Source: Pseudoxanthomonas sp. CF125 (GTDB taxonomy: Bacteria; Pseudomonadota; Gammaproteobacteria; Xanthomonadales; Xanthomonadaceae). From it: a stretch of 64,000 bases of DNA. The notes below the pieces were generated by a model. That model searched no databases, was not told the origin of the DNA, and was given only the letters and a program-made list of their open reading frames with translations. Location: the NCBI RefSeq assembly GCF_900104085.1, contig NZ_FNLD01000002.1, forward strand, positions 744,001 through 808,000, written 5' to 3'. Below are positions 26,175 to 48,012 of the stretch, piece after piece. The first letter of the stretch is position 1. Each line of letters starts with the position of its first letter. Made by a program: the position numbers and the translations under genes.

Positions 26175-28220
26175 TTAGTTGCCGCGCATTTCCAGCTTCA
26201 GCGCGCGCGCGATCGATTCCCACGGCACGTACTTGTAGTTCTGGTTTTCCACCGGCATCACGTTGCGGCCGTCCTGGGCGATCATGGCGCCGTGCTCGAA
26301 ACCGGGGCCCAGGTTGCGGCTGGTGATCTCCAGCCCATCGGTTTCGGAAATGCCGTCGATGCCGCGCAGCGGATCGGCGACCACGGCGAACGATCCCAGA
26401 TATTCCTGCTTGCCTTCGCGGCGATAGACCGCATAGGTGTCGTTGCCCTGGCTGGACACGACGATGTAGCCGCGGCCGTCGCCCAGGTCGTAGATGCCCA
26501 GTCCCTCGAAGTCGTCCTTGACCGCGGGATTGTCGGCGATCTTCTGCACCGCGGTCTTCGCATCGCCACCATCGGGCTCGGCCGACATGCGCCACAGGGC
26601 CACGTCTTCTTCGTCCACGTACAGCGTGCCGTCGTGGTCGTCGGCCACGCACCCTTCGGTCTGCGAATCGAAATTCATGTCGCGCACCAGCTTGGCGGTT
26701 ACGCGGCCTTGCGCGGTCGCCACCAGTTCCCATTGGCGCTTGCGCGTGTCGTCGCCGTTGACGAACACGTAAAAGCGCTGGTCCTTCGGGCTGCGGTACA
26801 TGCACAGGCCGTAGGGGTCGCCCAGTCCAGTGGGCTGTACGCCATCGGCGACATCGACCAGTTCGCGCTTCTGCGTGTCCAGCCGGTAGAGCCCGATGGA
26901 CTTGTCGGTGCGATTGCTGGCCGCGACCAGCACGATCTTCTCGCCGCCCAGCTCGAAGTCCTCGCGCAGGTCGACGTTGTTCATCTTGCCGACCGGCAGG
27001 AACTGCACCACCTTGCCTTGCATGTCGTAGAGGTACAGGCCGGCCTTCTTGTCGGTGGCCACTACCAGACTCTTGGCCGGATCCTGCGGGTTGGCCCAGA
27101 TCGCGGGGTCGTCGGCGGCGTCGCCGTAGCTGCCGGCGAACGTGGTCTCCACGGTGGCGGTGACTGCTGCGACCTTTTTGGGTTCGGCCGTGGCGGCGGC
27201 GGTAGCGTCGAGGGGCAGATTCAGCGCCTTGGCGATATCTTCCATGGCCAGCGCTTTGTAGTTGGAGCCGTCTTCGTCGGTGATCAACAGCAGGCCGTTG
27301 GGGAACGACGGATAAGCCGCGCCGGTCGCGAACAGCGGGCCCGGTTCGCCGATGGCTTCGCTGCTGCCTGGCGCCGCTACCTTGAACGCGCCCAGGAAGG
27401 CGTCGTGCTTGTCGCGGTCGTACACGTTCACCTGGCCTGCCGAGGCGTCCGATGCGATCAGCCAGCGCTTGCCGCCTCCGTCGTAGACCGCGATGCCGCC
27501 GCTTTCCTCTTCGATATGGCCCAGTCGCGGCGCGTCGACGATCCTGGCCGAGACATCGGCTTCCGGATCGGCGTTGAAGCGCCAGATGCCCACACCTTCT
27601 TCCGAGGCGTACACGTGGCCTTTGTTGTCCGCCGCGCATTGCTTGAGCGGGGAGGGCACGTTGATGCGGCGCATCTGCCGAGCGTCCAGCTTGCCCCCGG
27701 CGGTGGCGAACAGGATCTGCTGATCCACTTCGCCGCCATCGCCGACGATGAAGGCGTACAAGGCGCTGTCCAGCGGGTTGCGGAACAGGCAGATGCCTTC
27801 GGCCGCGAAGCCGAGCGGCAACGGCCGCGCTCCTATTTCGGTCAGTTTTTCGCCCTGCATGGAAAACAGGCGCAGGCTATTGGTAGTGGTGTCGATGGCG
27901 GCCAGCACGGTGGCTTTGCCCTTGCCCAGTGCGACGTCGTAGGCCACGTCCACCGCGGCTACTTCGCCCGAAGGCGCCGTGCCCAGGAGCTTGCCGGCAA
28001 GGTCGTAGACCTCCAGTCCGCCCAGTGCCGAGGTGCCGACCAAGCGGCTGCGCGCCGGTTTGGCCGAATCGCGCACCAGCACGGCGGCATTGGCCTCTTT
28101 GCTGACGGTCGGCGCGGTCTGCGATCTGGCGGAAATCAAGGCGGTTTCCTGCGCGGCCGCGGTGCAGCAAAGCGCAAGAGCGATCGAGGCGGCCAGACAG
28201 GCCGTGCGGCGGATTCCCAT
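26175..28220 (-). CDS. Two-domain beta-propeller phytase (3-phytase, BPP family)
   Basis: The 681-residue exported enzyme should remove phosphates from phytate in the periplasm or outside the cell. The ATG at 28220 follows GGGAGA and gives a Sec signal peptide (MGIRRTACLAASIALALCC...AAAQ). The second half (about 355-680) has canonical BPP landmarks: DDPAIW (370-375), MNNVDLREDF, TEGCVADDHDGTLYVDEED and DDFEGLGIYD. The first half (about 40-335) keeps the propeller pattern (GGLEVYDLAGK, AEGICLF, QCAADNKGHVYASEE) but lacks the DDPAIW motif and looks degenerate, as in dual-domain BPPs. It is divergent from a TonB receptor and two genes from a histidine-acid phosphatase. Confidence 0.92.
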   Translation of the reverse strand: MGIRRTACLAASIALALCCTAAAQETALISARSQTAPTVSKEANAAVLVRDSAKPARSRLVGTSALGGLEVYDLAGKLLGTAPSGEVAAVDVAYDVALGKGKATVLAAIDTTTNSLRLFSMQGEKLTEIGARPLPLGFAAEGICLFRNPLDSALYAFIVGDGGEVDQQILFATAGGKLDARQMRRINVPSPLKQCAADNKGHVYASEEGVGIWRFNADPEADVSARIVDAPRLGHIEEESGGIAVYDGGGKRWLIASDASAGQVNVYDRDKHDAFLGAFKVAAPGSSEAIGEPGPLFATGAAYPSFPNGLLLITDEDGSNYKALAMEDIAKALNLPLDATAAATAEPKKVAAVTATVETTFAGSYGDAADDPAIWANPQDPAKSLVVATDKKAGLYLYDMQGKVVQFLPVGKMNNVDLREDFELGGEKIVLVAASNRTDKSIGLYRLDTQKRELVDVADGVQPTGLGDPYGLCMYRSPKDQRFYVFVNGDDTRKRQWELVATAQGRVTAKLVRDMNFDSQTEGCVADDHDGTLYVDEEDVALWRMSAEPDGGDAKTAVQKIADNPAVKDDFEGLGIYDLGDGRGYIVVSSQGNDTYAVYRREGKQEYLGSFAVVADPLRGIDGISETDGLEITSRNLGPGFEHGAMIAQDGRNVMPVENQNYKYVPWESIARALKLEMRGN

Positions 28221-28422
28221 ATGCTCTCCCGTGCGGACGCAGGCGGCCCGTGGTGTCATCAAGCGTCAATGTGTGGGCGGCAAGATCACATACCGTTTCC
28301 GGTTTTGCAAGAGAAATTCTAAATCTGTTGCAATTTGGAATGTTTGTTCGTAATCTCCCGAGCAACCGCCCGGTCAGGCCTTCGCCTGGCTGTTTGCGGA
28401 CGTCCTCGGGAGGGACTGAACG

Positions 28423-30807
28423 ATGCGGAACATTCACAGGAATGCGCTGACGGCTTTGATATTGAGCAGCCTGGCCATCGCGCCGGGATATGCGCTGGCA
28501 CAGGACGCGGATGCCGCGCCCGCGCCGCAGAACGATGAGGTCACCGATCTGCAATCGGTGGTGGTGACCGGGGAAATCCAGTACCGCAACCGCACCGAAA
28601 CCACCGCGCCGGAGCTGGTCTACGGCCAGGAATTCTTCGCCCAGTTCGAGCCGGTTTCGGTCGGCGACCAGCTGCGCCGCGTGCCGGGCGTGGCCTTTAC
28701 CAGTGATATCGGCGAGTCCGATTCGCCGCAGTTGCGCGGGCTTGGCCAAGGCTATACCCAGGTGCTGGTGAACGGCCGTCCCATTCCCGGCGCCGGCAAC
28801 GACCGCACCGTGTTCGTCGACCGCATTCCGGCCGAGATCATCGACCGCATCGAGATCGTGCGTTCGCCCAGCGCCGACATCGACAGCCAGGGCGTAGGCG
28901 GCACCATCAACATCATCCTCAAGGACGGCGAAAGCCTGCCGCCGGGCGTGATCGCCCGCGTCGGCGCCACCTACAACACCGATGCCGGCAATATCCGCGG
29001 CAACGGTTCGGTGTCCTGGTCCGGGCGCAACGAAGCAGACACGGTCTTCTATTCGCTCACTCTGGATGCGCAGGAACGCTACAACAATAAAGACACCGTG
29101 CAGGAAGTGTTCGAAAGCGATTCGGTGGGCTTCGACGAGGAAGTCGGCCGGCATGGCTCCGGCGCCGGCCTCGCCCGCTTCGACGACCCTGAAAATTCGT
29201 CGGCGATAGAGCGCACCGAAGAACAGGACAGCCGCGATTCGCGCGACCTGTCGTTCAACGGCGATTTGACCTGGAAGCCGACGGAGGATTCCAGCCTGCG
29301 GCTTGACGCGTTCTACCTGAGCACCGACCGCAAGGAACATCAGGACACTTTCAATTACGAAGGCGACGGCAGCGTCGGCGGGCTCGACCTCGAGAATCCC
29401 GAGCTGGAGTTCGAGGACACCGACATCCAGCAGGACAGCTTCGGTTTGGGCGCCGAGTACCAGAAACAATTGAGCGACGTGAGCAAGTTCAGCCTGCAGG
29501 CGGCCTATGCCAGCTTCACGGACGACACCGTGCAGGACAAGTTCGAGGAAACCAACGAGGATCTGGTCAGCAAGGAAACCACCGACGCCGAAGACGCCGA
29601 ATGGTCGGCCAGCGCGTCCTACACGCGCGAGCTGTCCGACCGGGTGGAAATGAAGGTGGGCGTCTCCGGCAAGGTCAAGGACCGCGACTATCGCCTGATC
29701 GTCGACGACGACCTGGATGACGAAGAGGAATTCACCCGCAACGACGGACGCTTCCAATACAAGGAGCGCCGCCTGGACGCCTATGCGCAATTCAAATGGA
29801 AACTCAGCAGCGCGGTGACGCTGGAAACCGGTCTGCGGGCGGAAAGCACCAAGACCGAACAGGATTTCCAGAACGAACTCTCCGAAGGCGGCGTGCTGGA
29901 AGAGACCATCGTCGGCGATGCGGACAGCAGCGAGTTCATGCTCAATCCGTCCGCTCACCTGCAATGGAAGCTTACCGACAACGATCAGTTCCGCGTCAGC
30001 CTGGCGCGCACGGTCCGCCGGCCCAGCATCGATCAGGTCATTCCGTCGTACGCGCTGGAATCGCCGGCCGACGAAGACGTGACCATAGGCAACCCGGATC
30101 TTTCGTTCGAATCCTCGTGGGGCCTGGACGTAGGTTACGAGCGGCGCTTCGGCGGGCGCGGCGTGTTCGGCGTCAACGTGTTCACGCGGCGGATCTCCGA
30201 CCTGATCGGGCTGGTCAATACAGGCCTGACGGTCGACGAGATCGGCCTGGATCCGGAAGATTTCCCCGGCAATATCTACACCTACCAGAACATCGGCGAT
30301 GCCAAGACCCATGGCGTCGAATTCGATCTGTCCACGCCGCTGGAATTCATGGGCATGTCCGAAACAGGCGTGTTCGCCAACTACACCCGGCTCTGGTCCG
30401 ACCGCGACGATCCGGCCGGCGGCGGCAAGATCGAGATCGACTACCAGCCCAAGTACGTCTATAACGTCGGCGTCACCCAGAACCTGCCTACCTGGAACAT
30501 GAGCTTCGGCTTCAGTTACCAGAAGCAGGGCGAATCGCGTTTCGTCACTTACGGCGAGATCGAAAGCCAGAAGTACGACGGCAATCTGGAATTCTTCGTC
30601 GAAAAGCGTCTTGGCGACCGCTGGGTGCTGCGTCTGACCGGCAATAACCTGCTGGACGCGGACAGCTTGCAGGCCGAAGCCGGGTTCGACGGCGACAACG
30701 GTGCGGAGATCCTGGCCAACCAGGCGGCCTACGACGTGGACGCGTATGAAATCGAGCGCGAGAATTCTTCGCCACGGTGGACCCTCACCTTGCGCGCGGT
30801 GTTCTGA
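28423..30807 (+). CDS. TonB-dependent outer-membrane receptor of the phytate locus
   Basis: The 794-residue receptor has a signal peptide (cleaved near YALAQ), a TonB-box-like segment DLQSVVVTG, a plug domain (GDQLRRVPGVAF..., QVLVNGRPIPG, IDRIEIVRSPSADIDSQGVGGTINI) and a beta-barrel ending in LTLRAVF with a terminal Phe. It lies between two phytase-type genes, so transport of phytate or partly dephosphorylated inositol phosphates is the best inference. The extracellular regions are rich in Asp/Glu, which does not exclude metal-phytate complexes. The divergent region with the phytase gene is about 200 bases. Confidence 0.9.
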   Translation: MRNIHRNALTALILSSLAIAPGYALAQDADAAPAPQNDEVTDLQSVVVTGEIQYRNRTETTAPELVYGQEFFAQFEPVSVGDQLRRVPGVAFTSDIGESDSPQLRGLGQGYTQVLVNGRPIPGAGNDRTVFVDRIPAEIIDRIEIVRSPSADIDSQGVGGTINIILKDGESLPPGVIARVGATYNTDAGNIRGNGSVSWSGRNEADTVFYSLTLDAQERYNNKDTVQEVFESDSVGFDEEVGRHGSGAGLARFDDPENSSAIERTEEQDSRDSRDLSFNGDLTWKPTEDSSLRLDAFYLSTDRKEHQDTFNYEGDGSVGGLDLENPELEFEDTDIQQDSFGLGAEYQKQLSDVSKFSLQAAYASFTDDTVQDKFEETNEDLVSKETTDAEDAEWSASASYTRELSDRVEMKVGVSGKVKDRDYRLIVDDDLDDEEEFTRNDGRFQYKERRLDAYAQFKWKLSSAVTLETGLRAESTKTEQDFQNELSEGGVLEETIVGDADSSEFMLNPSAHLQWKLTDNDQFRVSLARTVRRPSIDQVIPSYALESPADEDVTIGNPDLSFESSWGLDVGYERRFGGRGVFGVNVFTRRISDLIGLVNTGLTVDEIGLDPEDFPGNIYTYQNIGDAKTHGVEFDLSTPLEFMGMSETGVFANYTRLWSDRDDPAGGGKIEIDYQPKYVYNVGVTQNLPTWNMSFGFSYQKQGESRFVTYGEIESQKYDGNLEFFVEKRLGDRWVLRLTGNNLLDADSLQAEAGFDGDNGAEILANQAAYDVDAYEIERENSSPRWTLTLRAVF

Positions 30808-30885
30808 GCGTTTCGCAGAATGCAATAACGCAGTCGACCGATGGCCTCCCAGGAGGTCATCGGTCCATCCGGCAGAAGGAAAAAC

Positions 30886-32175
30886 ATGTCATCGATACGC
30901 TTCGGATGCGCGGTCGCGCGCCTGTCCTGCATTGGCGTCCTGACAGCGTGCGCGGCCGGTTGCGCCGCCGAAGGTCGGACCTCGGCTACCGGTCCTCAAG
31001 CCGTGCATGGGGACGATCTGCGTCTCGAGCGGGTGGTGATGCTGATGCGGCACGGCGTACGGCCGCCGACCAGGGCCAAGGTCGCACCCGAGGCACTGCA
31101 CGATAAATCCTGGCCGAAGTGGTCGGTGGATTTCGGCGAACTCACCGCGCACGGCTACGACGCAGTGCGCCTGCTGGGGCAGTGGGACCGCGCCAACTGG
31201 GTGGCCCGCGGGCTGCTGCCGGCGACGGGCTGTCCCGCCGAAGCCGACGTGGAGGTCGCGGCCAGCAACAAGTCGCGCACCCAGGCGACCGCACGGGCGC
31301 TGGTGGAAGGCATGGCGCCCGGCTGCGCACTGCATGTCGAATTTCCCGCCACTCCCGACGACGACGTCGAGTTCCATCCGCTGGATGCCGGCGCAATGCC
31401 CATCGATGCGGACGAAGCAATGCGCGCGGTGGCGGCGCTTGCGCCGGCCGGCGGCATGCAGGCAGAAATCGCCACGCATGCCGAACGCTTCGCTTTGCTC
31501 AACAAGGCGCTGGGATGCGAAGGCTCGCGCAAGAGCGCTGCTTGCGATGTATCGGCGCTGCCTGCGGGTCTGGTGCGCAATGAGGGCGACCGGCCCGATG
31601 TCGGCGATCCCTTCGGTTTGGCTTCGACGATCAGCCAGACTTTCCTGCTGGAATACCTGGAAGGCATGCCGATGCGGGACGTGGCCTGGGGCCGGCTGAC
31701 GCGCGGGCAGATCGAAGAGTTGCTGGAATTCCATTCGCTGAAGTTCTACTACGAAGGACGCGCACCTTACGTGGCAGCGCGCGCGGCCTCGCCGCTGGCC
31801 GCGCGCATGCTCGAGGCGATGGAGCAGGGGCCGCGACTCACCGTGCTGGTGGGACACGACACCAACATCGCCGACCTGGGCGGGCTGCTGGATCTGCACT
31901 GGCAGGTGCCCAGCTATCCGCGCGACGATCCGCCGCCGGGTGGCGCGCTGGGATTCGAAGTGCTGGCCGATGCATCGGGAAAACGCTTCGTGCGTGCGTT
32001 CTATCGTTCGCAGACCATGGACCAAGTGCGCGAACTGCAGCCGTTGTCGGCAGCCAACGCGCCCGCCTACCAATACCTGCCGATTCCCGGTTGCGACAAC
32101 GGCTGCCCATTGCCGGAATTCGAAGCGCTGCTCCGCTCGCGCCTGGTGCGGCCGCTGAAGTCCGCCGGCCGCTGA
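30886..32175 (+). CDS. Exported histidine-acid phosphatase, phytase-like
   Basis: The 429-residue enzyme is in the branch-2 histidine phosphatase family (AppA/Agp type). The phosphate pocket RHGVRPPT starts at Arg55 and the proton-donor motif is GHDTNIADL (His324, Asp325). The ATG at 30886 follows AGAAGGA; an in-frame ATG at 30841 would bury the signal sequence. The N-terminus is a signal peptide, with LTAC at 19-22 possibly serving as a lipobox, so the enzyme may be lipid-anchored. It follows the TonB receptor by 78 bases and is likely co-transcribed. Enzymes of this type degrade phytate to inositol monophosphate, but glucose-1-phosphatase activity is an alternative. Confidence 0.88.
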   Translation: MSSIRFGCAVARLSCIGVLTACAAGCAAEGRTSATGPQAVHGDDLRLERVVMLMRHGVRPPTRAKVAPEALHDKSWPKWSVDFGELTAHGYDAVRLLGQWDRANWVARGLLPATGCPAEADVEVAASNKSRTQATARALVEGMAPGCALHVEFPATPDDDVEFHPLDAGAMPIDADEAMRAVAALAPAGGMQAEIATHAERFALLNKALGCEGSRKSAACDVSALPAGLVRNEGDRPDVGDPFGLASTISQTFLLEYLEGMPMRDVAWGRLTRGQIEELLEFHSLKFYYEGRAPYVAARAASPLAARMLEAMEQGPRLTVLVGHDTNIADLGGLLDLHWQVPSYPRDDPPPGGALGFEVLADASGKRFVRAFYRSQTMDQVRELQPLSAANAPAYQYLPIPGCDNGCPLPEFEALLRSRLVRPLKSAGR

Positions 32176-32189: not shown

Positions 32190-33167
32190 TTACAGGCGCA
32201 CCGGCGCGCCGGTGCGCACCGATTGCGCGGCGGCCTCGGCCAGGGCCAGGGCGGCGACGCCGTCGGCGTAGCCCACCGATGCGGCGGCGCCATCGAGCAT
32301 GTCAGCGAAATGATCCATCTCGCGGCGATAGGCTTCTGCGTAGCGGTCCAGGAAGAAGTTCTGGAAGCGGTCCGCAGCCGCGCCGTTCTCGCTCCATACC
32401 TGCACGGTGCTTTCGGTGACGTTGTCGGCGCGGACCATGCCGGCCGAGGCATAGGCTTCGATGCGCTGGTCGTAGCCGAAGCCGGAGCGCCGCGAGTTGG
32501 AGATCACGCAGATGCGGCCCGAGGCGGTCTTCAACACCGTGCGTGCGGTATCCACGTCGCCCAGTTTGCCTATTTCCGGATCCACCAGGCAGCTGCCGGC
32601 GGCGTAGACCTCCACTGGCTCTTCTCCCAATAGCCACCGCGCCATGTCGAAGTCGTGGATGGCCATGTCCTTGAACAGGCCGCCGGACACTGCGACATAC
32701 GAAGGCGGCGGCGGGCTGGGATCGTTGGAGGTGATCTGCAGCGTTTCCAGCGTGCCGATGGCGCCGCTGTCCAGGCGCGCCTTCAATGCCTGGAAGTTGG
32801 GATCGAAGCGGCGGTTGAAGGCCAGCAGCAGTTTCGCTTTCGACAACTGGCCCGCTGCGCTGCGCGCACGCGCCAGGTCCTGGTCGATGGGCTTCTCGCA
32901 GAACACGGCCTTGCCGGCCGCCGCTGCGCGCACGCTGTAATCCAGGTGGGTATCGGTGGAGCTGGCGATGATCACGCCGGCCACCGATGCGTCATCCATC
33001 GTCTGATCCAAGCTCAGCACCGGGCAACCGTATTCCTGCGCCAGCGATTGTGCCGAAGCGTCGATGGCATCGACCACGCCGGCCAGTTCGATACGCGGAT
33101 TGAAAGCGGCGTTCTTGGCATGGATGCGGCCGATGCGTCCGGCGCCGATAAGTACGACCTTGTGCAT
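32190..33167 (-). CDS. iolG: Inositol 2-dehydrogenase-type oxidoreductase (Gfo/Idh/MocA), copy 2
   Basis: The 325-residue NAD-dependent enzyme has a Rossmann start (GAGRIGRIHAKNAA), the EKP motif (CEKPIDQDLA) with catalytic Lys, a NRRFDPNF segment and the D-x-x-x-H catalytic pair in KDMAIHDFDMARWLLGEEP. In the pathway it oxidises myo-inositol to scyllo-inosose. It lies 13 bases downstream of a close paralogue in the same orientation and converges on the acid phosphatase gene. One copy may act on another stereoisomer such as scyllo- or D-chiro-inositol. Confidence 0.87.
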   Translation of the reverse strand: MHKVVLIGAGRIGRIHAKNAAFNPRIELAGVVDAIDASAQSLAQEYGCPVLSLDQTMDDASVAGVIIASSTDTHLDYSVRAAAAGKAVFCEKPIDQDLARARSAAGQLSKAKLLLAFNRRFDPNFQALKARLDSGAIGTLETLQITSNDPSPPPPSYVAVSGGLFKDMAIHDFDMARWLLGEEPVEVYAAGSCLVDPEIGKLGDVDTARTVLKTASGRICVISNSRRSGFGYDQRIEAYASAGMVRADNVTESTVQVWSENGAAADRFQNFFLDRYAEAYRREMDHFADMLDGAAASVGYADGVAALALAEAAAQSVRTGAPVRL

Positions 33168-33180: not shown

Positions 33181-34167
33181 CTAAAGATGGATGACGGTGC
33201 CGCTGCGCATCGACGCCGCGCAGGCTTCGGCCAGGACCAATGCGGCTACGCCGTCGGCATAGCCCACCAGCGGTTGCGCGCGACCGTGCAGTACGTCGGC
33301 GAAGTGATGGATCTGGTCGCGGTAGCCGTCCTGGTAGCGAGAGGCGAAACCCGGATGGATCGGCGCGCTGGATACGGCTTGTTCGGTCAGCGTTTGCAAC
33401 GTGTCCTGCTGCATGTTGCCGGCGCTGAGCATGCCGGAAGAACCGAAGGCCTCGATGCGCTGGTCGTAGCCGTAGCCGCTGCGGCGCGTGTTGGAAATCA
33501 CGCACAGCTTGCCGGATGCGGTCTTGAGCACGGTGCGCGCGGTATCCACGTCGCCCAGGCGGCCGATCTCCGGGTCGACCAGGCAACTGGCGGTGGTGTA
33601 GAGCTCCACCGGTTCCTCGCCCAGCAGCCAGCGCGCCATGTCCAGATCGTGGATGGTGAAGTCCTTGAACAGGCCGCCGCTGGTGGGAATGAAACCCGGC
33701 GGCGGCGAGGCGGGGTCGTGGTTGATCAGGTGCAGCGATTCCAGCCTGCCGATCGCGCCAGTGTCGAGTTTCTGTTTCAACGCCTTGAAGTGCGGATCGA
33801 AGCGTCGGTTGAAACCGAGCAGGAAGCGCGCGCCTTCGAAGCGCGATTGCGCCTGCAGCGCTTTCTGCAGGTCCAGGTCGATGGGTTTTTCACAGAACAC
33901 CGCCTTGCCGGCTTCCACCGCGGCCAGCGCGTTGGCCAGATGCTGGTCGGTGGAGCTGCAGACCAGTACGCCCTGGATCAAGGGATCGGCCAACGCCTGT
34001 TCCAGCGTGGCGGGCCGCGCGTCGAAGCGCTGGCACATGGCCTGTGCGGCCTCGGGCCGCGGATCGACCACGTACTTCAGCCTCAGGCCCGGGTGCCGGG
34101 CCGCGTTGGGGCCATGCACCTGGCCCATGCGCCCGGCGCCGATCAGCGCTAACTCGATGCGTTCCAC
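33181..34167 (-). CDS. iolG: Inositol 2-dehydrogenase-type oxidoreductase (Gfo/Idh/MocA), copy 1
   Basis: The 328-residue paralogue shares most motifs with the next gene: GAGRMGQVHGPNAARHP, CEKPIDLDL, FNRRFDPHFK, TIHDLDMARWLLGEEPVE and LVDPEIGRLGDVDTARTVLKTASG. The last of these is nearly identical in both copies, pointing to a local tandem duplication. It is transcribed divergently from the rpiR-type regulator through an AT-rich operator region, so it is probably controlled by that protein. Function is myo-inositol (or isomer) oxidation. Confidence 0.88.
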   Translation of the reverse strand: MERIELALIGAGRMGQVHGPNAARHPGLRLKYVVDPRPEAAQAMCQRFDARPATLEQALADPLIQGVLVCSSTDQHLANALAAVEAGKAVFCEKPIDLDLQKALQAQSRFEGARFLLGFNRRFDPHFKALKQKLDTGAIGRLESLHLINHDPASPPPGFIPTSGGLFKDFTIHDLDMARWLLGEEPVELYTTASCLVDPEIGRLGDVDTARTVLKTASGKLCVISNTRRSGYGYDQRIEAFGSSGMLSAGNMQQDTLQTLTEQAVSSAPIHPGFASRYQDGYRDQIHHFADVLHGRAQPLVGYADGVAALVLAEACAASMRSGTVIHL

Positions 34168-34197: not shown

Positions 34198-34231
34198 GGA
34201 AGTTCTATTCTATTTCATATTGTAATAGAAT
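34198..34231. promoter_or_regulatory. AT-rich operator candidate between iolG and the RpiR regulator
   Basis: The divergent gap is strikingly AT-rich. It contains GGAAGTTCTATTCT (34198-34211), close to the GGAA-N6-TTCC pattern reported for RpiR-type IolR, and an inverted repeat ATTCTATT-N9-AATAGAAT (34207-34231). Confidence 0.5.
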
Positions 34232-34300
34232 TTCCAAGAAAATACTTTATATTCCATTCTCCGGCAGGTGCCGGGCATCGCATTGGCAAGGAGTGGCCGT

Positions 34301-39954: not shown

Positions 39955-40757
39955 TGCAACTGCGCGTTCGCCCGCATGCGCCCGATGCTGCCGGCACCGT
40001 GCTGGAAGTGACGCCCGCCAGCGCGGGTTGGCAGCACGTGGGGTTCAAGCTGGTACAGCTGCGGGCGGGGCAGACCTATGCCGCCAGCGATGCCGGCCGC
40101 GAGACCTGCCTGGTACTCGTTTCTGGCGCCGCGGATGTGACTGCCGGCGACGAAACCTTTGAAAACCTCGGTGGCCGCGCCACGCCGTTCGAGGACAAGG
40201 CGCCGGGTGCGGTCTACGTTCCGGCGGGAATCGCCTGCACCGTCACCGCGAAAACCGCTGTCGAACTTGCTGTCTGCACGGCTCCCGGCACCGGTGCGGG
40301 AAAGGTACGTGCGATCGACGAATCGACGATGACGCGCGAGGTTCGCGGCAAGGACACGAACACCCGTTACGTGCGCAATATCCTGCCCGAGACCGAACCC
40401 GCCGAGGCCCTGCTGGTGGTGGAAGTGATCACGCCCGGCGGCCACTGGTCCAGCTATCCGCCGCACAAGCACGATACCGCCACGCCGGAACAGGAAACGG
40501 CGCTGGAGGAAACCTACTACCACCGTCTGCAGCCGCAGCAGGGCTTCGCCATCCAGCGCGTCTATACCGACGACCGGTCGCTGGACGAAACGATTTCGGT
40601 GGAGGATGGCGACGTGGTGATGGTGCCGCGTGGCTACCACCCGGTCGGCGCGCCCCACGGATACGATCTCTACTACCTCAACGTGATGGCAGGCCCGAAG
40701 CGCCAATGGGTCTTCCGCAACGATCCCGCCCACGAATGGATCGTGCGCAAGCGCTGA
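39954..40757 (+). CDS. iolB: IolB, 5-deoxy-glucuronate isomerase
   Basis: The 267-residue bicupin isomerises 5-deoxy-glucuronate to 2-deoxy-5-keto-gluconate. The C-terminal cupin carries the family signature SSYPPHKHDT, followed by EETYYHRLQPQQGFAIQRVYT and GYHPVGAPHGYDLYYLNVMAG, which contain the metal-binding His/Glu set. Its start shares one base with the iolE stop. Confidence 0.94.
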   Translation: MQLRVRPHAPDAAGTVLEVTPASAGWQHVGFKLVQLRAGQTYAASDAGRETCLVLVSGAADVTAGDETFENLGGRATPFEDKAPGAVYVPAGIACTVTAKTAVELAVCTAPGTGAGKVRAIDESTMTREVRGKDTNTRYVRNILPETEPAEALLVVEVITPGGHWSSYPPHKHDTATPEQETALEETYYHRLQPQQGFAIQRVYTDDRSLDETISVEDGDVVMVPRGYHPVGAPHGYDLYYLNVMAGPKRQWVFRNDPAHEWIVRKR

Positions 40758-40796: not shown

Positions 40797-42296
40797 ATGC
40801 GCAACATCGAACATTTCATCGGCGGCCAGTCGGTCGCAGGAACCTCCGGCAACTACGGAGAAGTTTTCGACCCGAACCGCGGGCTGGTGCAGGCTCGCGT
40901 ATCGCTGGCTTCGGCCGCCGAGCTGGATCGCGCGGTGGCCATTGCCGCCGAAGCGCAGAAAGGATGGGCCCAGGCCAACCCGCAGCGCCGCGCGCGGGTG
41001 ATGTTCGAATTCAAGCGCCTGCTGGAGGCGCATATGGACGAGCTCGCCCTTCTGCTGTCCAGCGAGCATGGAAAGGTGATCGCTGATTCGAAGGGCGACC
41101 TTCAGCGCGGCCTTGAGGTCATCGAATTCGCCTGCGGCATTCCGCACCTGCTGAAGGGTGAATACACCCAGGGCGCCGGTCCGGGCATCGATGTGTACTC
41201 GGCACGCCAGCCCTTGGGTGTGGTCGCGGGCATCACTCCTTTCAATTTCCCCGCGATGATCCCGATGTGGATGTTCGGTCCGGCCATCGCCTGCGGCAAC
41301 GCCTTCATCCTCAAGCCTTCCGAGCGCGATCCCTCGGTGCCGGTGCGGTTGGCCGAGTTGATGATCGAAGCAGGCCTGCCGCCCGGCGTGCTCAACGTGG
41401 TGCATGGCGACAAGGACACGGTGGAAGCGATCCTGAAACATCCGACCATCAAGGCGGTGAGCTTCGTCGGTTCCTCCGACATCGCCCAGTCGGTCTATTC
41501 ACTGGGCGCGCAACATGGCAAGCGTGTGCAGGCGATGGGCGGGGCCAAGAACCACGGCATCGTGCTGCCCGACGCCGACCTTGACCAGACCGTCGCCGAC
41601 CTGATCGGTGCGGCCTACGGTTCAGCCGGCGAGCGCTGTATGGCCTTGCCGGTGGTGGTGCCGGTGGGCGAGGAAACGGCGGAAGCGTTGCGCGAGAAGC
41701 TCGTCATCGCGATCAAGGCCTTGCGCATCGGCAACTCCACCGACGCGCAAGCGCACTACGGCCCGGTCATCAACGCTGCGCACCGCAGCAAGATCGAGGC
41801 CTACCTGCAGACCGGCGTGGACGAAGGCGCCGAACTGGTGCTGGACGGACGCGGCTTCTCGCTGGCCGGCAGCGAACAGGGCTTCTTCCTCGGCCCCAGT
41901 CTGTTCGACCACGTCACCGCCGGGATGAAGACCTATCGCGAAGAGATCTTCGGCCCGGTGCTGCAGATCGTGCGCGCCGCGACGTTCGAGGAAGCGCTGG
42001 AACTTCCTTCCAAGCACCAGTACGGCAACGGCGTGGCCATCTTCACCCGCAATGGCGATGCCGCGCGCGAATTCGCCGACCGGGTGGAAGTGGGCATGGT
42101 CGGCATCAACGTGCCTATTCCGGTGCCGGTGGCCTACCACAGCTTCGGCGGCTGGAAGCGTTCGGGCTTCGGCGATCTCAACCAGTACGGCATGGATGGC
42201 GTGCGCTTCTACACGCGCACCAAGACCATCACCCAGCGCTGGCCCAAAGGCGGGCCCGTGTCCGACCAGAGCTTCGTCATTCCGACGATGCGCTGA
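40797..42296 (+). CDS. mmsA: Methylmalonate/malonate-semialdehyde dehydrogenase (IolA/MmsA)
   Basis: The 499-residue CoA-acylating aldehyde dehydrogenase has GVVAGITPFNFPAMIPMWM, the NAD-binding FVGSSDIAQSVY, and the catalytic Cys281 in GSAGERCMALPV. In the inositol pathway it converts malonate semialdehyde to acetyl-CoA and CO2; the same family also serves valine breakdown. Position right behind iolB argues for the inositol role here (iolA). Confidence 0.93.
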   Translation: MRNIEHFIGGQSVAGTSGNYGEVFDPNRGLVQARVSLASAAELDRAVAIAAEAQKGWAQANPQRRARVMFEFKRLLEAHMDELALLLSSEHGKVIADSKGDLQRGLEVIEFACGIPHLLKGEYTQGAGPGIDVYSARQPLGVVAGITPFNFPAMIPMWMFGPAIACGNAFILKPSERDPSVPVRLAELMIEAGLPPGVLNVVHGDKDTVEAILKHPTIKAVSFVGSSDIAQSVYSLGAQHGKRVQAMGGAKNHGIVLPDADLDQTVADLIGAAYGSAGERCMALPVVVPVGEETAEALREKLVIAIKALRIGNSTDAQAHYGPVINAAHRSKIEAYLQTGVDEGAELVLDGRGFSLAGSEQGFFLGPSLFDHVTAGMKTYREEIFGPVLQIVRAATFEEALELPSKHQYGNGVAIFTRNGDAAREFADRVEVGMVGINVPIPVPVAYHSFGGWKRSGFGDLNQYGMDGVRFYTRTKTITQRWPKGGPVSDQSFVIPTMR

Positions 42297-42345
42297 ATAA
42301 AGCATCCGATGGAATAGCAAGTCCGACCATTCCTGGGAGGGAATC

Positions 42346-43692
42346 GTGGCTGGTGGAATCCTGAAGTTCTTCACGACCGGCCCCGATCTGCCGGAGCTGT
42401 CCGACCGTGCGCAAATCGACGGCCTGTTCAAGCGCCACCGGTTCCGGGTGATGCTGGCCATCACCCTGGGCTACGGTCTTATCTACACCTGCCGGCTGGC
42501 ATTGGGCGTGGTGAAGAAACCGCTGATCGATACGGGCATCTATTCGCCCAGCGATCTGGGCATGATCGGATCGGCGCTGTTCTACACCTACGCAATCGGC
42601 AAGCTGACCAACGGCTTCCTGGCCGACCACGCCAACATGAAACGCTTTTTGGCGTTCGCTTTCCTGGCCACGGCGCTGTGCAATCTGGCGATGGGATTCA
42701 CTACCGCCTTGTGGGCGGCGGTGATGCTGTGGGGATTGAACGGCTGGTTTCAGAGCTTCGGCGCGCCCGGCGGCGTGGTGGCGATGACCAGCTGGTTCTC
42801 CAACCGCGAGCGAGGCCGTGCTTATGGTGTCTGGAGCACCGCCCACTCGATCGGCGAAGGCCTGACCTTCCTGGTGGTCGGCAGCGCGGTCGCCGCGCTG
42901 GGCTGGCGCTGGGGCTTCTGGGGTCCGGGCATCATCGGTATCGCCACCGCGATCGGCTGCTTCCTGCTGATCCAGGACCGGCCGCGCACGATGGGCCTGC
43001 CCACGGTCAACGATTGGAAGAACGACCACTACGGCGAGGCGGCCAAGCCTGCGGCCAAATCGGTGATCGGCCTGCAGTTCTCCATCCTCAGGATTCCTGC
43101 GATCTGGGTGCTGTGCCTGGCCAGCGCACTCACCTATGTCACCCGCTACGCGATCAACTCCTGGGGCGTGCTGTACCTGCAGGAGGAACGCGGTTTCTCC
43201 TTGCCTGCGGCAGGCACTTTGCTGATGGTCAGCACGCTGGCCGGCATCGTCGGCGCCATCGCCTTCGGCCTGGTGTCCGACAAGGTATTCAATGGCAGGC
43301 GTCCGCCGGCCAATCTGCTGTTCGGCATGCTGGAACTGATCGGTCTTTGCCTGATCTTCTTCGGACCGGCCAACATGCCGGTGCTGGTGGCGGGCATGCT
43401 GCTGTTCGGCATGGGCATGACCGGCATGGTGACTTCGCTGGGTGGCCTGTTCGCGGTGGACATAGCGCCCAAGCGCGTGGCCGGCGCGGCAATGGGAGTG
43501 ATCGGCATCTTCAGCTACATCGGCGCGGGCATCCAGGAACAGGTATCGGGCTTGCTGATCGAAAAAGGCATGACCGTCGCGGGCGCTGTGCGCAGCTACG
43601 ATTTCGGGCCGGTGATCTGGTTCTGGATCGGCTGCTCGGTCGTCGCAACGCTGCTCGCCACCAGTCTGTGGCGCACCAAACTTAGAGATTGA
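42346..43692 (+). CDS. Organophosphate:phosphate antiporter-type MFS transporter (GlpT/UhpT family)
   Basis: The 448-residue protein has about twelve membrane helices and aligns by eye with GlpT. Arg50 (YTCRLALG), His167 (STAHSIGEG) and Arg267 (YVTRYAINSWG) fall where GlpT has Arg45, His165 and Arg269, the residues that bind the phosphate group. The inter-lobe segment GLPTVNDWKNDHY also matches. GTG start at 42346 follows GGGAGGGAA. It lies between iolA and an IMPase-family gene. No IolT-type or ABC inositol transporter is present, so import of an inositol phosphate in exchange for phosphate is plausible; free inositol, or a UhpC-like sensor role, are alternatives. Confidence 0.85.
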   Translation: MAGGILKFFTTGPDLPELSDRAQIDGLFKRHRFRVMLAITLGYGLIYTCRLALGVVKKPLIDTGIYSPSDLGMIGSALFYTYAIGKLTNGFLADHANMKRFLAFAFLATALCNLAMGFTTALWAAVMLWGLNGWFQSFGAPGGVVAMTSWFSNRERGRAYGVWSTAHSIGEGLTFLVVGSAVAALGWRWGFWGPGIIGIATAIGCFLLIQDRPRTMGLPTVNDWKNDHYGEAAKPAAKSVIGLQFSILRIPAIWVLCLASALTYVTRYAINSWGVLYLQEERGFSLPAAGTLLMVSTLAGIVGAIAFGLVSDKVFNGRRPPANLLFGMLELIGLCLIFFGPANMPVLVAGMLLFGMGMTGMVTSLGGLFAVDIAPKRVAGAAMGVIGIFSYIGAGIQEQVSGLLIEKGMTVAGAVRSYDFGPVIWFWIGCSVVATLLATSLWRTKLRD

Positions 43693-43702
43693 GGAAGAAG
43701 AC

Positions 43703-44509
43703 GTGCTTGAACCTTCGCGTGACCTGCAGGCGATGATCGAAGCGGCGCAAGCCGCCGGCGCAGGACTGCGCAAACATTTCGGCAAACTGTCCGAACTCGG
43801 CATCCGTTCCAAGAGCGGGCCGGCCGATCTGGTCTCCATTGCCGACGAGGAAGCGGAGCGCGCCACGCGTTCGATCCTGGAAAAAGCCCAGCCGGGTTTC
43901 GGATTCCTGGGCGAGGAAGGCGGCGAGTTCGGCGGCAGCGACCGCTCGCAGACCTGGATCGTCGATCCGCTGGACGGTACCACCAACTTCCTGTTCGGCA
44001 CGCCGCTGTGGGGCGTGAATGTGGCGCTGGCGCGCGAAGGCGAAGTGGTCGCCGGCGTCACCTACCTGCCGGCGATCGATGAACTTTATGTCGCCGAGCA
44101 GGGCAAAGGCTGTTGGCTCAACGGCCAGCGTATCCGCGTCTCCACGCGCGCCACTCTGATCGAATCGGTGTTGGCCTGCGGCATCCCCTTTGCCGGCAAA
44201 CCGGACCACCCGGTGTTCGCGCGCGAGATGGCGCTGCTGAGCGCCGAAGTGGCCGGCATCCGCCGCACCGGCGCGTGCGCGGTGGACATGGCCTGGGTCG
44301 CTGCCGGCCGATGGGATGCCTACTGGGAACGCGCGCTCAACGCCTGGGACATGGCGCCGGGGGTGATTCTGGTGAAGGAAGCGGGCGGGGTGGCGACTTC
44401 GGTCACCGGCGGCGCGCTGGATCTGCATGGCGGCAACGTCTGCGTTTCCAACGGTGCGGTCCAGCATGCGCTGATGGAAAAACTCAACGCGGCGCTCGAT
44501 CAGGATTGA
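43703..44509 (+). CDS. Inositol monophosphatase-family phosphatase
   Basis: The 268-residue enzyme has the complete Mg-dependent IMPase signature: GEEGGE (Glu71/72), DPLDGTTNF (Asp88, Asp91) and WDMAPG (Asp216). It should release phosphate from myo-inositol monophosphate in the cytosol. GTG start follows GAGGAAG and lies 10 bases after the transporter stop. SuhB-type housekeeping copies are usually elsewhere in the genome, so this one looks dedicated to the inositol cluster. Histidinol-phosphate or 3',5'-bisphosphate activity cannot be excluded from motifs alone. Confidence 0.9.
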   Translation: MLEPSRDLQAMIEAAQAAGAGLRKHFGKLSELGIRSKSGPADLVSIADEEAERATRSILEKAQPGFGFLGEEGGEFGGSDRSQTWIVDPLDGTTNFLFGTPLWGVNVALAREGEVVAGVTYLPAIDELYVAEQGKGCWLNGQRIRVSTRATLIESVLACGIPFAGKPDHPVFAREMALLSAEVAGIRRTGACAVDMAWVAAGRWDAYWERALNAWDMAPGVILVKEAGGVATSVTGGALDLHGGNVCVSNGAVQHALMEKLNAALDQD

Positions 44510-44513
44510 ATCG

Positions 44514-45977
44514 ATGAAGCCGAGACGCCGCAGTTTCCTCAAGGGCACCGGGCTTGCCGCCGCGTTAGCGCTGGTTCCGCGCGCATGGGCGCAAGTGCTG
44601 GGATATCCGCGTGCCTTGCAGGGTCCGATGATAGGCGCTCCGGGTCCGAACCATTTCACCGTGTGGGTGCGGGCCAGCGGCGCGTTCGAGGTGCAGTTGG
44701 AATACTCCACCGACCGCTACTTCGAAACCGTCATGCGCGGTTCCGGCGCAGTGGCGAGCGCGGAGAACGATTGCTGCGTAGTGCTGCGCGCCGAAGGCTT
44801 GGAACCGGACACCACGTATTGGTACCGCCTCAAGTACGCCGGCGAGGAAGATCGCTACCAATTCCTGCCGCACAAGACCAGGACCGCTCCGGAAGGTCCT
44901 GCCGACTTTCGCATCGCCTTCGGTTCCTGCTGCCGCATCCAGTACGACCCCGACCAACGCATCTGGAACGCGGTGCGCGCGCTGGAGCCGGACATGTTCT
45001 TCTGGCTGGGCGACAACATCTACGCCGACAGCGATCAGCACGCCGCGCTGATCGACTTGTATGGCCGCGGCCGGGTGGTCGAGCGGTTGGAACCGCTGCT
45101 GCGCTCCACTCCGCAACTGGCGACCTGGGACGATCACGATTTCGGCCATAACAACTCCGATGGCGCCAACCCGCGCAAGGCCGATTCGCTCAAGATCTTC
45201 CGCAACTTCTGGGCCAATCCGGGCTACGGCGAGTCCGGTAATCCTGGCGTGTACTTCAAGCAGCACTACGGCGGCGTGGATTTCTTCGTGCTCGACGGAC
45301 GTTACCATCGCGATGCCACCGACAAGACCGACGACGCCGGCAAGACCATGCTCGGCGCGGCGCAGAAGGCTTGGCTGAAGCGCGGACTGAAAGCCAGCCG
45401 GACGCCGTTCAAGGTCCTGGCCATCGGCGGCGGCTGGTCGTCGGCCGAGAACGAAAAGGGCGGCGATTCCTGGGGCGTGTACCTGACCGAGCGCAACGAG
45501 ATCTTCGATTTCATCCGCGACAACGATATCGGCGGCGTGGTCTGCATCTCGGGCGATTCGCACATGGGCGAACTGAACTGCATTCCGCGCTCGGGCCAGG
45601 GCGGCTACGATCTCTACGATTTCTGTTCTTCGCCGCTGGCGCAGATGCCGGCGGCCAAGAACACGCGGCAAGCGCCGGAAGTGCGGGTGCGCGATACCTG
45701 GACGCGTTCGGTGAACGTGGGCCTGATGCGCTTCGATATGACTGGCGCCGAACCCACGCTCACCTACACCTTGCACGACGTGATGGGCGAGCCGGTATGG
45801 GATCCGTTGGTGCTGACGCCGTCCGATCTGAAGAACGGAGTCAAGACCTGGGACCGCAAGTCCGATCCCGAAGAGCTGGGAAGGCTGGAACGCTTCAAGC
45901 GCGGCGGCGGCTATTACGGCTACGATGCGCCGGAAGGCTGGCCTAGCCGCCCATACTACGACGGAATGTCAGACTGA
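44514..45977 (+). CDS. Tat-exported PhoD-like alkaline phosphatase/phosphodiesterase
   Basis: The 487-residue protein starts with a twin-arginine signal (RRRSFLKGTG) and a short fibronectin-like N-terminal domain. The PhoD-type metallophosphatase domain follows: FGSCCRI, FFWLGDNIYADSDQ, ATWDDHDFGHNNSDG, VLDGRYHRD, GDSHMGEL. Such enzymes hydrolyse phosphomonoesters and diesters outside the cytoplasm using Ca and Fe. It begins four bases after the IMPase gene, so it is part of the same operon. Its 3' end overlaps the convergent TonB receptor gene by 35 bases. Confidence 0.9.
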   Translation: MKPRRRSFLKGTGLAAALALVPRAWAQVLGYPRALQGPMIGAPGPNHFTVWVRASGAFEVQLEYSTDRYFETVMRGSGAVASAENDCCVVLRAEGLEPDTTYWYRLKYAGEEDRYQFLPHKTRTAPEGPADFRIAFGSCCRIQYDPDQRIWNAVRALEPDMFFWLGDNIYADSDQHAALIDLYGRGRVVERLEPLLRSTPQLATWDDHDFGHNNSDGANPRKADSLKIFRNFWANPGYGESGNPGVYFKQHYGGVDFFVLDGRYHRDATDKTDDAGKTMLGAAQKAWLKRGLKASRTPFKVLAIGGGWSSAENEKGGDSWGVYLTERNEIFDFIRDNDIGGVVCISGDSHMGELNCIPRSGQGGYDLYDFCSSPLAQMPAAKNTRQAPEVRVRDTWTRSVNVGLMRFDMTGAEPTLTYTLHDVMGEPVWDPLVLTPSDLKNGVKTWDRKSDPEELGRLERFKRGGGYYGYDAPEGWPSRPYYDGMSD

Positions 45978-48012
45978 AATAACCGGGCGTTTCGCGGTCG
46001 CGGCGTTCGGTTTCCTCCAGCGCCGAGGTCGAACGCGGGCCGTCGTACTTGCGGCGCGATTCGATGAAATCGCGGCCGAACAGATCGGTGGCTTCGGCGC
46101 GCACGCGCCAGCGTTCGCCGATGCGGCGCTCCACGAACAGCGTCCATCCCGCGTCTTCCGATTCGCGCGCCACTTCGTCGTAGCGGTATTTGGCTTCGCG
46201 TTCTGCGATATGTTCGAATTCGACGCCCCAGTTGATGCGCCACGCGGGCAAATCCTGGGTCAGCTCAATGCTGCCTTCCACCGGCTTCTCCTCGGAGATC
46301 GGCCGCGACTGGCCGGTGACCGGATCGGTGACCCGACTGCGCCGCCACAACATCGAGGTGCGCAGGTGCGCGCCACTGAATCCGATGCGGTCCAGGGGCG
46401 TGGAGAATTCCAGGACCAGCGTGTCGCGGCGTCCGTCGCCGATATTGCCGGGCGCATCGAACGCATCGTCGGGCGTGGTCACCAGCACGCGGTCGATCAC
46501 GTCGCTGATCTCGTCGTGGGTCCAGGTCAGGGTCAGTGCCGCATCGCTGCCGAAGCGACGCTCCCACGCCGCGCTCGCGCGCCAGGTTTTGTCCGGTTCC
46601 AGGCTGGCGTTGCCCGCCGCCACCAGATCCGAATCCAGCGAGGCGGAGGCGACGAAATCGCCGAACTCCAGTTGGCCTACTTCCCGCGACAAGGCGAAGC
46701 GGAACTGGTTGCGCTGATCCCGATCCCAGCGCGCAGCCAAGCGTGGCTTCGGGTAGGTGAAGCTGCGTCGCAGCGGGCTGTCGCCGCTCTGCGAGATGGA
46801 AGAGCGCTCGACCCGCATGGTCCCTTCCAGCAGCCAGTGGTTGGCCGGTTTCCAAAGTGCGCCGAAAGCGGCCTCCGCGCGCTTCTCCTCGATCCTTACC
46901 TGCGAACCAGGCAGTGCGACCGGCGCGCCGTTCTGCACCAGCGCCGCCTCGCTTTCCAGGAAATTGAATGCGCCTTCCAATGATGTGACGAAAGACAGTC
47001 GCTGCGAATGCTCGTGGGTCAGTTCCAGGTGGCCGATGGTCTCGCCGGTGTCGGTCTTCTCGCCGAAGGTCTCCTGCTCGCCGTCCTCGATCGATTGCTC
47101 CTTGCCCTCCAGCCAGCCGAGTTGCTGCGAAAGCGTCATCTCCATGGTGGAATGGGCACCGAACTGCTTGACGAAGCGCGCGCCGAATTCCACTTCTTTG
47201 CTGTCTTCCGATTCCTGCACTGTCTCGTCCTCGGCATTGCCGAAGACAGCTTCGATGCCGGTGCTGGTTCGCACGCGTTCGCCGCGCGCGGCGGCGGTCA
47301 GGGTCAGCCGTCCGCCGGCGACGGGCTGGCGCCAGCTCACCCCGGCTTCGCTGTTCCTGGCGACGGTGCGCGTGCGCAGACGGCTTAGGGCCAGCAGACC
47401 GCCTTCGGGCGAGAACGTGCGGATGGTGCCGCGCCCGCTGTCGTCGTCCAGCTCGGGTTCGAACTTCAGCGCCAGATCCAGGGCGCGATCCTGCCAGCGG
47501 CGTCCGTACTCCACTTGTCCCTGCGGCGACAGCCAGCCGTCGGTGGAAGCCACCGCACCGGCTTCCAGCGCCGCCTCGGTGGAGGCCTCGCGCCGCCGCA
47601 CCACGTTGGCCAGGATCGGGTGACCGGACATGTCCACGCCGCTAGCGCCGCTGCGGATCAATTCGATGCGTTCCACCGCAGCGGCTGGAATGCGCTTGAG
47701 CAGATCGCCGATATCCTCGCGCTTGCTCGAGGGCCTCGCGCCGTCGATCAGCACGTTCCCCTGCGCGGCCGCGTAACCGCGCACGTCCTCGTCGGCTTCT
47801 ACCAAAGTGAAGCCGGGCAGGCGATCGAGCATGTCGCGCGCGTTGGCCGGAGAAGCGGAGGCGAAATACTCGGGCGGGTAGGCCGTGATTCCGTTGGCGG
47901 CGGCAGTCTGCGCCGCCGCCGGCAGCGCCATGCACGCAGCCACGCATGCGATCAGGCGAAAGGCGAGTGCCGATGGCCAAGCCCTGGGCGATGATCCGGT
48001 GCCGGTCTGCAT
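45943..48012 (-). CDS. TonB-dependent receptor, second copy of the island
   Basis: The 689-residue receptor has a signal peptide (…ALPAAAQ), a short plug (ANARDMLDRLPGFTLVEADEDVRGY..., NVLIDGARPSSKRED, VERIELIRSGASGVDMSG) and a barrel ending SLTFRRSMGG. The C-terminus lacks the usual terminal aromatic residue, which is odd for an outer-membrane barrel; the last aromatic lies in YFSLTFRR. It converges on phoD with a 35-base overlap and is divergent from the PepSY/two-component operon. Substrate is unknown; a phosphoester or metal related to the island is a guess. Confidence 0.85.
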   Translation of the reverse strand: MQTGTGSSPRAWPSALAFRLIACVAACMALPAAAQTAAANGITAYPPEYFASASPANARDMLDRLPGFTLVEADEDVRGYAAAQGNVLIDGARPSSKREDIGDLLKRIPAAAVERIELIRSGASGVDMSGHPILANVVRRREASTEAALEAGAVASTDGWLSPQGQVEYGRRWQDRALDLALKFEPELDDDSGRGTIRTFSPEGGLLALSRLRTRTVARNSEAGVSWRQPVAGGRLTLTAAARGERVRTSTGIEAVFGNAEDETVQESEDSKEVEFGARFVKQFGAHSTMEMTLSQQLGWLEGKEQSIEDGEQETFGEKTDTGETIGHLELTHEHSQRLSFVTSLEGAFNFLESEAALVQNGAPVALPGSQVRIEEKRAEAAFGALWKPANHWLLEGTMRVERSSISQSGDSPLRRSFTYPKPRLAARWDRDQRNQFRFALSREVGQLEFGDFVASASLDSDLVAAGNASLEPDKTWRASAAWERRFGSDAALTLTWTHDEISDVIDRVLVTTPDDAFDAPGNIGDGRRDTLVLEFSTPLDRIGFSGAHLRTSMLWRRSRVTDPVTGQSRPISEEKPVEGSIELTQDLPAWRINWGVEFEHIAEREAKYRYDEVARESEDAGWTLFVERRIGERWRVRAEATDLFGRDFIESRRKYDGPRSTSALEETERRDRETPGYFSLTFRRSMGG

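Follow-up and report, generated by a model that had tools for sequence, protein, structure and literature searches.

A conserved phytase and inositol-catabolism locus in Pseudoxanthomonas sp. CF125 with a candidate inositol-phosphate importer

The window analysed here is a stretch of 64,000 nucleotides from Pseudoxanthomonas sp. CF125 (G000:C5:744001-808000 in our labels, where G denotes genomes and L denotes loci or contig stretches), and it carries a locus in which genes for phytate hydrolysis, myo-inositol catabolism and a transporter of the organophosphate:phosphate antiporter (OPA) type stand side by side. A sequence-only reading had placed this locus at 26175-48012 and interpreted it as one route from phytate to both phosphate and carbon. 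Profile searches of the window proteins with Pfam and NCBIfam identified all the genes named in that interval, while its right end had been set too early, since a two-component system carries the locus on to 50468. N-terminal signals and corrected start positions were judged by eye from the sequence, no predictor being used.

The leftmost gene (26175..28262, minus strand) encodes a dual-domain beta-propeller phytase, a known class, with two PF02333 stretches (426.7 bits) and a likely start at about 28220, before a Sec-like signal. In the whole-domain test, residues 351-689 aligned to positions 17-358 of the 375 of the PF02333 profile, and this protein accounts for all PF02333 matches in its genome. 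Its C-terminal half aligns to the solved phytase 1poo, with a near-complete C-terminal domain, and calcium-dependent phytate hydrolysis is predicted from the family. The protein shares the two PF02333 stretches with known dual-domain phytases and is distinguished from them by an inositol-type regulatory site at its promoter. From a common gap of 160 bp, the leftward phytase diverges from the rightward TonB-dependent receptor 1 (28423..30807, plus strand; PF00593, PF07715) and the histidine acid phosphatase that follows it (30841..32175, plus strand; PF00328 above cut-off). The latter is AppA/Agp-like and possibly a lipoprotein, with visible RHGVRPP and HDTN motifs and a lipobox-like LTAC; the solved structures most similar to it are those of phytases and histidine acid phosphatases, and, as it scores 233.4 bits against an AppA equivalog cut-off of 585 in NCBIfam, its class is given as branch-2 histidine phosphatase only. 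On the right side of the locus, a PhoD-like phosphatase (44514..45977, plus strand; PF09423, PF16655) has a Tat-type N terminus in which a twin-arginine stretch is visible by eye, the TAT_signal score of 20.4 bits being below the cut-off of 22.7, and it is followed by TonB-dependent receptor 2 (45943..48012, minus strand; PF00593, PF07715).

Between these genes lie those of inositol catabolism. Two paralogues of iolG, encoding inositol 2-dehydrogenase, occupy 32190..33167 and 33181..34167 on the minus strand, with TIGR04380 scores of 410 and 365.8 bits (cut-off 355), and the leftward iolG2-iolG1 pair diverges from a 100-bp gap shared with a rightward RpiR-family regulator of the IolR type (34268..35194, plus strand; HTH_6 and SIS domains), which is 67-72% identical to the RpiR proteins of the Caulobacter iol loci L007, L008 and L011. 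The next gene had been called iolC, correctly as to the kinase, and is in fact an iolC-J fusion of 5-dehydro-2-deoxygluconokinase and aldolase (35284..37221, plus strand; NF047869 776 bits, cut-off 600). It is followed on the same strand by iolD (37223..39067; TIGR04377 928 bits, cut-off 715), iolE (39064..39954; TIGR04379 375.9 bits, cut-off 290), iolB (39954..40757; TIGR04378 341 bits, cut-off 205) and iolA, for a CoA-acylating (methyl)malonate-semialdehyde dehydrogenase (40797..42296; TIGR01722 662 bits, cut-off 448.5); the starts of iolD and iolE, read from the sequence, lie downstream of those of the longest open reading frames. A published survey defines an iol cluster as at least three of iolB, C, D and E together (PMC9430895), and in the window all four exceed their NCBIfam cut-offs, so that the strain is predicted from its genes to catabolize myo-inositol. 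From iolC through D, E, B, A, the OPA gene and the inositol monophosphatase (IMPase) gene to phoD, all genes point rightward with intergenic gaps of at most 49 bp or overlaps, which suggests a single operon.

The OPA-type transporter (42346..43692, plus strand), a member of the major facilitator superfamily (MFS) and the candidate inositol-phosphate importer, finds its best subfamilies in UhpC, PgtP and GlpT, and it scores below the cut-off of every curated OPA subfamily (GlpT, UhpC, PgtP, UhpT). It aligns to the GlpT structure 1pw4 with an E value of 9.5e-51, and its R50, K86, H167 and R267 align to what we take to be the functional GlpT residues R45, K80, H165 and R269. These four Arg, Lys and His residues are kept in 27 of 27 aligned module rows, some of them near-duplicates. 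Family-level similarity and the conserved residue set thus place the protein in the OPA family, with putative exchange of organophosphate for inorganic phosphate (Pi); it resembles GlpT, UhpT, PgtP and UhpC in sequence family and in the four GlpT-type residues, but differs from them in its subfamily scores and in its linkage to phytase and iol genes. The adjoining gene (43703..44509, plus strand) encodes an IMPase-family enzyme with a PF00459 score of 208.9 bits (cut-off 27), below the NCBIfam equivalog cut-offs and with no signal peptide seen by eye. It adjoins the OPA gene in 20 of 20 loci, and in the window genome and in G063 it is an extra, third PF00459 copy, 27 of the 31 genomes examined in the genus having two copies and four having three. 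Two further genomes of the genus (G410 and G413) each hold a third PF00459 gene and may be additional carriers of the locus.

The locus ends with a UrpR-like response regulator (48448..49110, plus strand), 66% identical to the L018 regulator with its Response_reg and Trans_reg_C domains, and a UrpS-like sensor histidine kinase (49107..50468, plus strand; PF02518), whose best NCBIfam match is PhoQ (125.9 bits, cut-off 497).

The conservation of this arrangement was evaluated in 198 Xanthomonadaceae genomes from 54 genera. A full-length phytase was found in 12 of them, weak partial PF02333 matches being left out, and an iolC-J above cut-off also in 12, with both present in 10 genomes (Fisher p ~2e-13, a value that overstates independence given the kinship of the genomes). 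At a threshold of E 1e-30, the OPA transporter was detected, with 75-100% identity, in exactly those 10 genomes and in no other of the 198. Two raw counts were discarded: that of PF02333 (55/198 at E 0.001), since 43 of the matches were partial, scored at most 33.7 bits and covered mostly profile positions 205-333, and that of NF047869 (162/198), which consisted mostly of other sugar kinases and of which the 12 matches above 600 bits were kept. In all 10 carriers the phytase, iolC-J and OPA genes share one contig, and the phytase-iolC distance is below 8 kb in nine of them and about 27 kb in G063. In this last genome, a close relative of the window strain, three TonB-receptor-type genes and an S9 peptidase separate iolG1 from the histidine phosphatase gene (L084:1635-20000, L085:1-700). 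The order phytase, iolG1, iolG2, rpiR, iolC, D, E, B, A, OPA, IMPase, PhoD and two-component system is common to the 10 carriers, response regulator and kinase being in place in each, and TonB receptor 2 stands at the locus in nine. Phytase occurs without iolC-J in G034 and G040, and in G090 and G138 a different iol cluster occurs, full phytase and OPA being absent. Adjacency in relatives had been chosen beforehand as a point on which the joint reading could fail; the block is linked in 10 of the 12 Xanthomonadaceae phytase genomes, and the reading survived. The histidine phosphatase, which had been counted as part of the pathway, proved dispensable: it adjoins the block in 5 of the 10 carriers and was therefore rejected as a core component. 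In one of the five without it (G158), a 34% match lies beyond the two-component system.

Beyond this family, a tblastn search found the OPA gene in 8 of the 80 named iol loci among the matches listed, those of P. dokdonensis, a Rhodanobacter metagenome-assembled genome (MAG; L005), a Phenylobacterium MAG (L006), Caulobacter sp. Root343, a betaproteobacterial MAG, Sphingomonas horti and two Sphingopyxis. L005 and L006 show equal identities gene by gene and are probably one sequence binned twice. The histidine phosphatase is found in seven of these eight loci, L006 ending early, and also in L004, a stretch cut off ahead of the OPA position, the OPA gene of that genome being on another contig. 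A window-type phytase was not found within the sphingomonad stretches. Among 199 Caulobacteraceae genomes (thresholds E 1e-50 for OPA and E 1e-30 for window-type phytase), OPA was present in 14 and the phytase in 106. In ten of the 14, phytase and OPA are no more than about 18 kb apart, with iol genes and IMPase in the window order, although iolA was not detected in L113, L011 has one iolG, and the histidine phosphatase was not seen at three of the ten loci (L110, L111 and L113). In the other four (G225, G232, G251 and G364), no phytase or iol gene occurred in the stretches read, of 9 kb for G251 and 19-20 kb for the rest. The linkage is qualified by the 96 of 106 Caulobacteraceae phytase genomes that lack the OPA transporter, and iol genes were adjacent in one of the seven OPA-less dual-domain phytase loci that were read in this family. 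Pairwise distances of nine proteins were correlated over 24 loci (22 for the phytase), with Spearman coefficients of 0.47-0.77.

The regulatory sequences provide a further connection between phytase and inositol genes. In Caulobacter, the IolR operator consists of GGAA-N6-TTCC-like palindromes (PMC2597717). Exact copies of GGAA-N6-TTCC occur three times in the window and never within the locus, so that the argument depends on near matches, on a trained matrix and on conservation. The position weight matrix (PWM) was trained on the iolC and iolG2 promoters only, which means that their own scores are no evidence; these are the palindromes at 35193..35206 (17.3) and 35222..35235 (21.6, the best in the window) upstream of iolC, and at 34198..34211 and 34222..34235 in the iolG2/rpiR gap. 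The promoter shared by phytase and TonB receptor 1 contains two sites: palindrome 1 at 28337..28350, with one mismatch to GGAA-N6-TTCC and a PWM score of 12.1 (rank 8 in the window), within a block that hardly varies among 12 aligned loci, and, 30 bp away, palindrome 2 at 28307..28320 (11.6, rank 10), whose position is kept in the same 12 loci. As palindromes with one mismatch number 43 in the window against 18.6 expected, single sites carry little weight, and unrelated window sites score like those of the phytase promoter.

The comparison among loci is more informative. Under one rule for all loci, the 350 bp upstream of the first aligned phytase codon were scored, with uncorrected p values from shuffles by pairs of bases, which are not exact dinucleotide shuffles. 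The phytase promoters of 22 of 22 module loci, comprising 12 of the xanthomonad type (the 10 carriers, L004 and L005) and 10 from Caulobacteraceae (L011 and L106-L114, the phytases of L011 and L114 matching that of the window at the C-terminal domain only), scored 9.0-15.0 with p values of 0.005-0.08 each, at or below 0.05 in 21 and 0.08 in G168. The nine phytase loci without OPA (L119-L125, G034 and G040) scored from -0.6 to 8.4, and L125 reached just 2.7 despite its adjacent iol genes. L015, with a 33% phytase and no palindrome, was counted in neither group. The paired sites are 30 bp apart in 11 of the 12 xanthomonad-type loci, where they form nearly invariant blocks between diverged flanks. 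Control regions upstream of TonB receptor 2, the response regulator and the histidine phosphatase gave median p values of 0.24-0.44, with single exceptions at the L005 receptor and the L011 phosphatase; of the histidine phosphatase regions, those adjoining the phytase (L011 and L107-L109) did score. An additional IolR site ahead of the OPA gene was rejected as a general feature, being strong in only G072, G158, L005 and L011 and weak in the window genome among the 12 scored. The palindromes at the phytase promoter argue for co-induction with the iol genes. Because they mark every module locus and all nine OPA-less loci score low, the phytase looks as if it had been captured by the inositol-carbon regulon through putative IolR binding.

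Two known systems are closely related to this locus. The inositol module of Caulobacter crescentus (idhA, iolR and iolCDEBA, CC1296-CC1302, with ibpA-iatA-iatP; PMC2597717) shares with it the enzymes, an RpiR-type IolR and the palindromes. In that species, however, inositol is imported solely by a separate ATP-binding cassette (ABC) system (PMC2597717), whereas the window has OPA and IMPase in the operon and palindromes at the phytase promoter. The C. crescentus phytase CCNA_01353, which matters when phytate is the phosphate source, is controlled by UrpRS (CCNA_01362/01363), so that phytase and two-component system also share a locus there, framed as phosphate and uranium biology (PMC8963506). 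By gene numbers and by L125, iol genes lie between them: the L125 order, phytase-iolG-rpiR-iolCDEBA-small ORF-response regulator-kinase, fits the published positions of +9 and +10 from the phytase. The UrpRS likeness of the window pair runs through L125 (72% identity for the response regulator and 53% for the kinase) and not through the C. crescentus proteins themselves; L125 differs from the window in lacking OPA, IMPase and an IolR-like site at the phytase. The survey of inositol clusters (IolCatGC; PMC9430895) likewise places iolB, C, D and E in one cluster. Its main text does not contain the words phosphatase or monophosph-, and transporters unlike known inositol facilitators were left out of its cluster lengths. 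A literature search, covering titles and the beginnings of abstracts with few subscription papers, returned neither an account of a locus of this kind nor one of a bacterial importer of inositol phosphates. The locus is real and conserved, and its inositol module and phytase/UrpRS parts are known; what we infer anew is that OPA and IMPase serve to import inositol phosphate instead of free inositol.

Taken as a whole, the locus is probably best explained as a phytate-catabolism cassette. The TonB receptors would help phytate or lower inositol phosphates to cross the outer membrane, both substrates being putative, and phosphates would be stripped in the envelope by the secreted phytase together with PhoD and, at some loci, the histidine phosphatase. 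The OPA-type antiporter would then take in what inositol phosphate remains, probably in exchange for Pi, the last phosphate would be cleaved off by the cytosolic IMPase, and IolG, E, D, B, C-J and A would turn inositol into dihydroxyacetone phosphate, acetyl-CoA and CO2. The IolR-type RpiR protein would control the iol genes as well as the phytase/TonB-receptor promoter, so that the phytase would be induced as a carbon gene, and the UrpRS-like two-component system may add a metal or phosphate signal. That the locus encodes a whole phytate-carbon pathway is very likely, and the earlier proposal that phytate yields both phosphate and carbon is supported for Xanthomonadaceae, the Caulobacteraceae phytases without OPA qualifying it. 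For the import step, with its putative substrate, the chances appear about even: an organophosphate-type carrier with a cytosolic IMPase, in the place that an inositol permease takes in other iol clusters, fits the needs of inositol-phosphate import. Equally balanced is the broader proposition that several bacterial families use phytate carbon by OPA-mediated antiport of still-phosphorylated inositol against Pi, with final dephosphorylation in the cytosol and the phytase in the inositol-carbon regulon.

A different account, possible but somewhat doubtful, is that envelope phosphatases strip phytate fully and that free myo-inositol enters through an altered MFS protein at the locus, or through a sugar porter, a sodium/solute symporter (SSS) or an ABC system encoded elsewhere, the IMPase being a passenger. 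It is in keeping with the presence of PhoD in 10 of 10 xanthomonad carriers and of the histidine phosphatase in five, and several other observations, on the importers and beyond, weigh against the cassette as proposed. Sugar porters with E values of 1e-106 or better occur in 7 of the 10 xanthomonad carriers (all except G072, G128 and G168), and strong SSS symporters in several, including G128 and G168, so that free inositol could enter these cells. Strong PF13407 binding proteins, searched for, among the carriers, in the xanthomonad ones, are present in G010, G123, G158 and G162 and are 28-30% identical to the Caulobacter-type binding protein. In G162, a full ABC importer (binding protein, permease and ATPase) and a calcineurin-like phosphoesterase lie beside the phytase (L093:10323-15037), as does an IbpA-like binding protein in G271 and G328, which in G201 is found elsewhere. 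Phytases tend to leave axial 2-phosphates, and these are poor substrates for classical IMPases. The top NCBIfam match of the OPA protein is a sensor, UhpC (266.9 bits, cut-off 564), G034 alone among the nine non-module phytases reaches a palindrome p of 0.05, and, carriers and loci being phylogenetically related, the counts represent non-independent events. OPA homologues 53-68% identical to that of the window also occur at four loci without phytase or iol genes (L116:8666-12903, L118:6520-12749, L117:8923-12558 and L115:3647-8045), the last with Arg in place of the Lys of the GlpT-type set, beside glutamine synthetase and aldehyde dehydrogenase, oxidoreductase, MFS/LysR or O-antigen genes, which indicates that the OPA clade has other roles, not tied to inositol phosphates.

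Against the entry of free inositol stand the OPA-IMPase pairing in every one of the 20 loci, the unchanged GlpT-aligned residues and G072, where the module is present without a strong match to any of the three usual importer classes, namely sugar porters, SSS symporters (best 8.4e-6) and ABC sugar-binding proteins; its best PF13407 match, at 6.5e-21, is above the family cut-off and may be a LacI-type regulator. Among genomes with iol genes and without OPA, ABC sugar-type binding proteins were found in 7 of the 7 tested, those of L009, L020, L021, L022 and L024 lying outside the test. The Caulobacter-type protein (query from G198) recurs with 70-92% identity in the alphaproteobacterial G199, G210, G211 and G290, and G090 and G138 have a different ABC binding protein inside their iol clusters. 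Of the OPA carriers, 3 of 20 (G201, G271 and G328) have the Caulobacter-type protein, or four counting the other ABC system of G162, and both routes may coexist in these four genomes. Among the OPA-less loci, other MFS proteins are encoded in L020 and L022 and an SSS symporter in L024. In this last stretch (L024:6961-21900, Parvularculaceae), iol genes, a dual-domain phytase, an alkaline-phosphatase-like gene and the symporter stand together without OPA or IMPase in the stretch, and the arrangement looks like a free-inositol design, which speaks for the account with free-inositol entry.

That the phytase block serves phosphorus scavenging and merely lies next to the iol genes, carbon use being incidental, is unlikely. 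The phosphate role and UrpRS control of the C. crescentus phytase (PMC8963506) point in that direction, as do the UrpRS-like genes of all 10 carriers and the two-component pairs beside iol-less phytases in L121 and L124. However, the palindromes separate the 22 module loci from the nine others, the iol-adjacent L125 included, and phytase, iol and OPA genes co-occur in Xanthomonadaceae. That the OPA protein acts not as a carrier but as a UhpC-like sensor of periplasmic organophosphate is very improbable, since, for all its top match and the nearby two-component system, the kinase best matches PhoQ and not the UhpB type, and the two-component system occurs in L121, L124 and L125, where OPA is absent.

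Phytate is the main plant phosphorus store and a dominant organic phosphorus pool, and phytases have mostly been treated as phosphorus enzymes. A cassette joining phytase to inositol catabolism suggests that some bacteria may mine phytate for carbon, with phosphate as a by-product, even when phosphate is plentiful. If the proposed route is true, the locus offers a candidate inositol-phosphate carrier and, with it, a second bacterial solution beside free-inositol uptake. Growth on phytate carbon has precedent, since Klebsiella and Chryseobacterium were isolated on phytate as sole carbon and phosphorus source (PMC11219571).

Outside the locus, the genes flanking it in the window, used as queries, had no match in the flanks retrieved from the nine other carriers. 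The window also contains, at 6616-18283, an exopolysaccharide-type cluster with Wzz, a bacterial sugar transferase, a glycosyltransferase, GumK and a pyruvyl transferase, which we take to resemble the xanthan genes. Additionally, an RHS-repeat protein at 21-3437 adjoins the stretch of lowest GC content, at 2001-4000 (52% against about 65%).

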